This document shows, piece after piece, positions 10,097 through 13,925 of a stretch of DNA of 32,075 bases. A program made the position numbers and the translations under genes. The stretch is from a virus. Within the stretch, counting starts at the first letter, position 1. Every line of letters begins with the position of its first letter. The stretch lies in the IMG/VR virus record IMGVR_UViG_3300009467_000039, positions 1 through 32,075 of that record. One strand, written 5' to 3'. The notes beneath the pieces are model-generated. The model was not told the origin of the DNA and searched no databases. It saw only the letters and a list, made by a program, of their open reading frames with translations.

Positions 10097-10106
10097 TTTT
10101 TAATAG

Positions 10107-10254
10107 TGGTGAGGGGAGGCGTTGAACCTCCCATTGCCCGTGTTGCGATTTGTACATCCCGCAACAACCTTAACGCGCTCGACCTTATATTTTTCCTTAT
10201 TACGTATTCGGGAAAAAGCTCCAGTACCGCCTAACTTCCTGTTAGTGTCTCACC
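10107..10254 (-). ncRNA. tRNA-like RNA of about 148 nt, anticodon arm not resolved
   Basis: The 3' end has a perfect T-arm, GGAGG-TTCAACG-CCTCC, followed by CCTCACC and a discriminator A. At the 5' end GGTGAGA pairs with CCTCACC in 6 of 7 positions. It is followed by a D-arm-like CTAA-CAGGAAG-TTAG with a GG in the loop. These ends lie 148 nt apart, too far for an ordinary tRNA. The middle holds two hairpins, TTTTTCC/GGAAAAA and GTTGCG/CGCAAC, and no convincing 7-nt anticodon loop. It begins five bases after the tmRNA 3' end, so the two are probably processed from one precursor. It could be a degenerate or interrupted tRNA or a different tRNA-like RNA. Confidence 0.35.
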
Positions 10255-10259
10255 ATTTG

Positions 10260-10617
10260 TGGAGTCGGGGAGATTCGAACTCCCGTGTTCCTATTAAGTA
10301 AATAATCTTTCTACATGTTTATCCTAGAAATGCTAGGCCACTTTGAATGATGTTTGGGGACATACATTCATACTCCCTTTTGAGTAACTCTCCAGCAAAA
10401 ATGGCAATCTTAGGCAGCCATCAAAACCTCACGCTTTTCTACAACTGTGTTGATAGAAATAACATTGTTCTTAGATGCGAAAGCTACATCACTGTAACCA
10501 CCGACTTCGTTTGAAATGTTTCCATTTACAATTTGATACAATATTTTTAGAGTGTCAATATCATCCACTCACATGCTTACAACGATTTGTTAATAGAAGT
10601 CAAAACCAAGCGACCCC
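10260..10617 (-). ncRNA. ssrA: tmRNA (transfer-messenger RNA) with unusually long tag frame
   Basis: tmRNA rescues stalled ribosomes and tags the nascent chain for proteolysis. The 358-nt RNA has a 7-bp acceptor stem, GGGGTCG with CGACTCC. Its third pair is G-U, the alanine identity pair. It also has a D-loop-like GGTTTTGAC at nt 11-19, a T-arm GGGAG-TTCGAAT-CTCCC and discriminator A. Helix P2 pairs TTCTATTAA (nt 20-28) with TTAATAGGAA (nt 321-330) with one bulge. GAGTG/CACTC fits the first pseudoknot stem. CCA is not encoded. The probable resume codon is GGA at 10523-10521 (nt 95). From there one frame runs 37 codons (start GNISNEVGG, end KREVLMAA) to TAA at 10412-10410. The other two frames stop after 11-13 codons and do not end in Ala-Ala. 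No SmpB gene is in the window, so host SmpB is presumably used. Confidence 0.88.

Positions 10618-11961: not shown

Positions 11962-13925
<1,964 letters not shown>

Follow-up and report, generated by a model that had tools for sequence, protein, structure and literature searches.

A phage-encoded tmRNA with a long tag frame apparently conserved as protein

Phage-encoded tmRNAs are already known, as attested by the portions of PMC4131195 and PMC9004378 covered here, and the part of the 2025 tmRNA database paper covered here (PMC11915505) names 10 aa as the commonest length for a tag and treats 2-aa tags as extremely short. How much longer the tag of a phage tmRNA can be, and what the additional residues might do, are questions raised by a tmRNA gene on the minus strand of a 32-kb IMG/VR record (IMGVR_UViG_3300009467_000039, 32,075 nt; hereafter the window, meaning the whole stretch of DNA analyzed), in which a first-pass annotation made from the sequence alone had read a tag of 37 codons. 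Comparison with chromosomal and phage relatives makes it highly probable that this gene encodes a functional tmRNA and that the amino acid sequence of its long tag is conserved.

The window phage and its tmRNA gene

The window derives from a crAss-like phage. Its portal protein matches that of Cellulophaga phage phi14:2 (E 3e-110, 32% identity over 94%) and those of many other Crassvirales, and the large terminase agrees (E 2e-96 against phi14:2); by homology of these two proteins the window is Crassvirales-like, and since portal and terminase identity is only about 32% we place it no lower than the order. IMG/VR records are fragments without host data, and hosts were inferred from isolates and tmRNA similarity, which together suggest that the window virus infects Bacteroidota. 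Searches of IMG/VR with the DNA polymerase and the HD-hydrolase found no close relatives, the whole window tmRNA had no blastn match among GenBank phages and a 22-nt exact pattern taken from it returned no match.

The gene is a one-piece tmRNA of 359 nt (10259..10617, minus strand). The Rfam model RF00023 matches it with cmscan at 10617..10257 on the minus strand (72.1 bits, E 2.2e-26, against a curated cut-off of 47 bits) and is spanned in full (model positions 1-374), and ARAGORN calls the same gene at 10259-10617. The 5′ strand of the acceptor stem, GGGGUCG (10611..10617; sequence, cmscan and MFE fold), supplies G3 of the alanine identity pair G3-U70, and the 3′ strand, CGACUCC followed by discriminator A73, lies at 10260..10267 (sequence and cmscan). 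Between them, on the same minus strand, both cmscan and the minimum free energy (MFE) fold locate the T-arm GGGAGUUCGAAUCUCCC (10268..10284), the approximate strands of the P2 helix (5′ strand 10571..10599, 3′ strand 10288..10318) and the region of pseudoknot PK1 (10535..10570), with a stem GAGUG/CACUC, which is nearly identical in the closest relative described below. In the MFE fold of the single sequence, a long P2 helix, the stem of PK1 and the T-arm form alongside the 7-bp acceptor stem with its G3-U70 pair. The gene does not encode CCA, A73 being followed by CAA, and the RNA 3′ of the tag stop, corresponding to the PK2-PK4 region, aligns to RF00023 with low posterior probability. The first-pass annotation had described a complete tmRNA with a seven-pair acceptor stem, G3-U70, T-arm and P2 and had proposed a search with the Rfam model and a tmRNA-specific finder; both programs find the gene, and the covariance score and the fold bear out the description.

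Two further features share the strand of the tmRNA. Upstream lie groES and groEL (11962-13925), and directly 3′ of the tmRNA is a tRNA-like RNA of about 150 nt (10103-10255) with a 7-bp acceptor-like stem (GGUGAG/CUCACC), a D-arm-like hairpin, a T-arm GGGAGGUUCAACGCCUCCC and a long irregular middle. Its fold is more stable than those of shuffled sequences (z −2.4); neither default ARAGORN nor Rfam calls it, and a doubtful tRNA-Thr comes only from a relaxed, intron-allowing ARAGORN run.

Two families of long phage tags

Translation is predicted to resume at a GGA codon at nt 95 of the RNA (10521..10523, minus strand), in the context TTGTAAAT|GGA. Position and TAAAY|GG context are those of chromosomal Bacteroidota and other phage tmRNAs: ARAGORN places the tag start at nt 94-100 in 27 of 28 tmRNAs from Bacteroidota genomes, and these 27 tags, 9-10 aa long (e.g. 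GENNYALAA, GETNYALAA, GNEEFALAA), typically start with GG after TAAAY or a variant of it. From GGA the frame GNISNEVGGYSDVAFASKNNVISINTVVEKREVLMAA runs for 37 codons to a TAA stop at 10412-10410 (10410..10523 in total, minus strand) and ends in LMAA, a hydrophobic residue followed by Ala-Ala, while the other two frames from the same site stop after 11 and 12-13 codons. The resume position at about nt 95 and the single long frame ending in LMAA, both put forward in the first reading of the sequence, hold up in this comparison and on translation. When the downstream sequence was dinucleotide-shuffled, 9% of the shuffles stayed open for at least 37 codons and only 0.025% also ended in Ala-Ala; length alone is therefore weak evidence, and it is the comparative data that decide.

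A 58-kb contig, L303, allows the window frame to be compared with that of a relative. It has the gene order of the window (thymidylate synthase, DnaB-like helicase, helicase, macro-domain-like protein, DNA polymerase, tmRNA, GroEL) and a tmRNA scoring 76 bits, with 40 of 41 nt identical to the window across the P2-PK1 segment, although much of the RNA 3′ of the stop aligns poorly between the two. Its tag, GNVDSTLGTKADVLAAEKNNVISFRPAETEVREVAMAA, has 38 codons and shares 19 identical residues with that of the window (51%, with one 1-codon gap), and for eight of these 19 a synonymous codon is used; in 20,000 shuffles that left the ends fixed, this similarity was never reached. The first-pass annotation had suggested following the long frame in related phages, and here a syntenic relative keeps it, with synonymous third-base changes, which strongly implies that the window frame is under selection as protein. 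A reading with a tag of 16-17 codons ending near AFAS, produced by a sequencing slip of one or two bases (GCATCTAAG), was rejected because the frame of L303 runs straight through that point.

As a separate observation on these two contigs, the C-terminal part of thymidylate synthase (4246-5334 in L303; 155-1171, minus strand, in the window) is almost identical in both, whereas divergence is seen in the N-terminal part of the enzyme and in the other shared proteins, a pattern that looks like a recent exchange.

A more distant relative of the window tag is found on L298, a 482-kb phage contig with a tmRNA of 101 bits and the tag GNVITNEVGSKADVLAVLKTVKAKPSVAQVEELEIA; it is a weaker relative than L303, with 27 of 20,000 shuffles as similar to the window tag. 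We refer to the tags of these three contigs, which align over their whole length better than shuffles do, as the KNNVIS type. The window tag had these two relatives in the collections searched: a scan for the KNNVIS pattern found L303 and otherwise only unrelated matches, the tags of the window and of L303 had no tblastn match among GenBank phages, and the exact pattern of the window PK1 (GAGTGGATGATATTGACACTC) was absent from 395 genomes of one phylum.

Long tags are far more widely represented in a second family, recognized by the PK1 pattern AGAGAGATAACTG...AAACTAAGGTGA and by an inner tag motif, Q..ANM. At least 120 IMG/VR contigs carry this PK1 pattern, which was absent, as an exact pattern, from 84,980 prokaryote genomes (all of genome_contigs). 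The family includes relatives of the isolates phi14:2 (38 tag codons), phi38:1 and Calle_1 (30) and FpV4 (35, as in Fpv1). The tmRNA of phi14:2 is unannotated (NC_021806.1:4031-4502; 1501-1972 of our record L015) and, at 46 bits, falls just below the Rfam cut-off; its tag is predicted to begin GNDT... and, with the charged alanine, to read A-GNDTDNTQLKANM...KLAMVA. That of FpV4 is likewise unannotated.

Read from the resume codon, the contigs listed together with one further contig (L147) yield 84 distinct coding sequences and 81 distinct peptides of 24-49 aa (mode 35). Because they were sampled by one PK1 pattern, they portray that family and should not be read as a census. Q..ANM is present in 80 of the 81 and an Ala-Ala end in 76. 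For sequences in which several start offsets (10-14 nt after the PK1 pattern) satisfied the start rule, we chose the longest frame; this favours length, yet motif, start and end are consistent among the frames. Within the tag, conservation is highest in the inner motif, Q15, A18, N19 and M20 being invariant in 18 diverse tags. Across 42 nearest-neighbour pairs, substitutions number 91, 83 and 159 at codon positions 1, 2 and 3, and changed codons are synonymous in 97 of 253 cases in the tag frame compared with 42 of 250 and 34 of 251 in the other frames; since third-position bias and synonymous excess are confined to the tag frame, the Q..ANM tags are selected as protein. The 49 full-length members all have G3-U70, and resume at nt 84-91; their median length is 350 nt, and the stretch that follows the stop has a median of 150 nt. 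Four tags of this family (L079, L137, L081 and L093) look modular, as though recombination inside the tag had brought together an N-terminal part from one subgroup (VVSQGDNAQ or VVSLEDNAQ) and a C-terminal part from another (TVVHNILNG... or NLLGDDTQEE...).

The window tag lacks the Q..ANM inner motif, its PK1 differs from the pattern of that family, and it fits the Q..ANM profile weakly (6.8 bits, with 123 of 20,000 shuffles as good). These sequence features place it in the KNNVIS type, outside the Q..ANM type, and the two families may have arisen separately. No donor protein for the tag motifs was found outside tmRNAs in all the DNA searched.

Other phage contigs, found in a third scan, carry additional types of tag with 21-26 aa. 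Among them, a 380-kb IMG/VR contig (G062) has two tmRNAs with different tags, GNILENATVGHFVAEDAAVVA (21 aa, L330) and GNEFDIDENFLDTASVEVGTGEVAFA (26 aa, L333). Prevotella phage Lak-B1 has a tmRNA at the Rfam cut-off (L328, 414201-414610) with a 10-aa tag, DDEIEFRMAA, so the long tag is not universal among phages of Bacteroidota; a weak blastn match in a Lak phage, lying elsewhere than this gene, was rejected as not being a tmRNA. The initial view that tags usually have about 8-20 residues and are rarely longer does not hold for these phages, in which long tags are common.

Proposed role of the long tags

We consider it most likely, judging from sequence, that both families are working phage tmRNAs that use host SmpB and carry a ClpXP-type degron after a selected, probably helical segment. 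Host enzymes would add CCA to the phage tmRNA and charge it with alanine, and host SmpB would deliver it to ribosomes that have stalled on truncated mRNA; a search of 27 phage records found no SmpB, and no ClpP scored over the cut-off in 28. Translation would then resume at GGA, adding Ala and GNIS...LMAA to the stalled chain. In the E. coli tag the last three residues set the degradation rate, LAA and LVA being strong (PMC9097571), and by analogy the C-terminal hydrophobic-Ala-Ala of the phage tags would act as a ClpXP-type degron; given that their ends (VAA, MAA, IAA) differ from the chromosomal ALAA, efficient degradation by ClpXP is not certain.

The inner conserved segment, DV.A..KNNVIS in the window and Q..ANM..V..LL in the other family, may provide a second site of recognition, for a protease adaptor, for another AAA+ protease such as Lon or for a chaperone. 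AlphaFold predicts a helix over Q..ANM..V..LL with a pLDDT of 86-88 in its middle, and a low-confidence helix in the window tag (pLDDT 59). From the conservation of the inner segment we favour, as its probable role, the docking of an adaptor, a protease or a chaperone. The likely benefit would be that ribosomes are freed and chains recycled while infected cells hold many broken mRNAs, the chains being rescued under the phage's own tag instead of that of the host. More broadly, and with a confidence that stops somewhat short of even, we propose that Bacteroidota phages have replaced the 9-10 aa tag, more than once, with long tags in which the conserved inner helix acts as a further functional signal. 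During infection, rescued chains would then bear a phage-written address, and this signal would either dock an adaptor, a protease or a chaperone or be a peptide that itself affects the host. The first-pass suggestion that the extension might redirect chains or serve as a peptide as well as a degron would fit the conservation of the inner tag part.

The same strong conservation would also suit a tag that served chiefly as an effector or sorting peptide instead of a degron, with chains redirected, for instance to the phage chaperonin, or the released tag acting on the host. The groES-groEL pair upstream of the window tmRNA, the GroEL gene directly upstream of the tmRNA in L303 and the presence of Cpn60 in 10 of 28 long-tag phage records point in this direction, but a link between tmRNA and phage chaperonin is only suggested by neighbourhood, 18 of the 28 records show no Cpn60, and the retention of Ala-Ala in 76 of the 81 Q..ANM peptides is as expected of a degron; we consider this explanation unlikely. 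Slightly less probable again is an ordinary degron preceded by a long neutral spacer, in which the last few residues matter and length merely keeps the frame open through a lengthened RNA. The variation in tag length within one family (24-49 aa) and the C-terminal Ala-Ala common to both phage families and chromosomal tags would suit such a spacer, against which stand the prevalence of synonymous changes in the tag frame and the fact that the inner motif, with its four invariant residues, is the most conserved part of the tag.

Very improbable is a decoy or decaying copy that blocks host tmRNA or SmpB and performs no tagging, as proposed for the fragment of mycobacteriophage DS6A, a tRNA-like-only form that inhibits tmRNA according to the portions of PMC4131195 and PMC11915505 covered here; the failure to find SmpB in the phage records speaks for it, but DS6A has lost its mRNA part, whereas the window tag frame is complete and conserved as protein. 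We give least credence of all to a 10-residue tag, VEKREVLMAA, with resumption at nt 176 and an untranslated upstream frame: it is the tag that ARAGORN reports, the last 10 codons of the 37-codon frame, and has the commonest tag length (PMC11915505, in the part covered here), but nt 176 is about 80 nt 3′ of the resume site of 27 of 27 called chromosomal tmRNAs (nt 94-100), a position occupied in the window by TAAAT|GGA, the first 27 codons of the frame are kept as protein relative to L303, including KNNVIS with synonymous changes, and the ARAGORN starts in other phages with an open frame from the homologous resume site are equally displaced and mutually inconsistent (nt 165 in phi14:2, 113 in Calle_1, 158 in L147; range 113-165).

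tmRNA tags are usually short degrons; the phage tags are 3-5 times longer and conserved residue by residue across many phages. Conservation at this level indicates that the inner tag part has a function, and with it ribosome rescue would be rewritten during infection. Standard annotation starts such tags in the wrong place, as in the ARAGORN calls, or misses them, as in phi14:2 and FpV4; cultured phages with long tags (phi14:2, phi38:1, Calle_1 and FpV4) make the question directly testable.

Comparison with known tmRNAs

Complete phage-encoded tmRNAs, like that of the window, are described for Bacillus phage G, mycobacteriophages including Bxz1, and Melnitz in the portions of PMC4131195 and PMC9004378 covered here; these phages have other hosts, the Melnitz tmRNA is of the two-piece form, and those portions describe no long conserved tag for any of them. 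The Calle tmRNA has already been listed (PMC8776804). Long phage tags are not mentioned in the part of the tmRNA database paper covered here (PMC11915505), and we found no description of long conserved phage tmRNA tags in the open-access literature searched. As the literature comparison is with open-access papers, we claim no length record for the phage tags.

The closest parallels lie among the phage and chromosomal tmRNAs compared here. The Q..ANM family resembles the window in its resume site and first residues, in long tags that mostly end in hydrophobic-Ala-Ala and in its restriction, in these searches, to phage records, but differs in PK1, P2 and inner motif. The Bacteroidota chromosomal tmRNAs are one-piece, like that of the window, with the same resume position and context, a similar total length and tags that begin with Gly (Gly or Asp in the chromosomal tags) and end in Ala-Ala; unlike their tags of 9-10 aa with an NYALAA-type end, the window tag has 37 aa, no NYALAA and an added inner motif.

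Among cellular tags, that of Mesoplasma florum, about 27 aa long, is unrelated in sequence to the window tag and shorter than its 37 aa. It nevertheless resembles the window tag in being longer than that of E. coli, and it is read by a dedicated protease, Mf-Lon (PMC9097571), which sets a precedent for tag-specific recognition.
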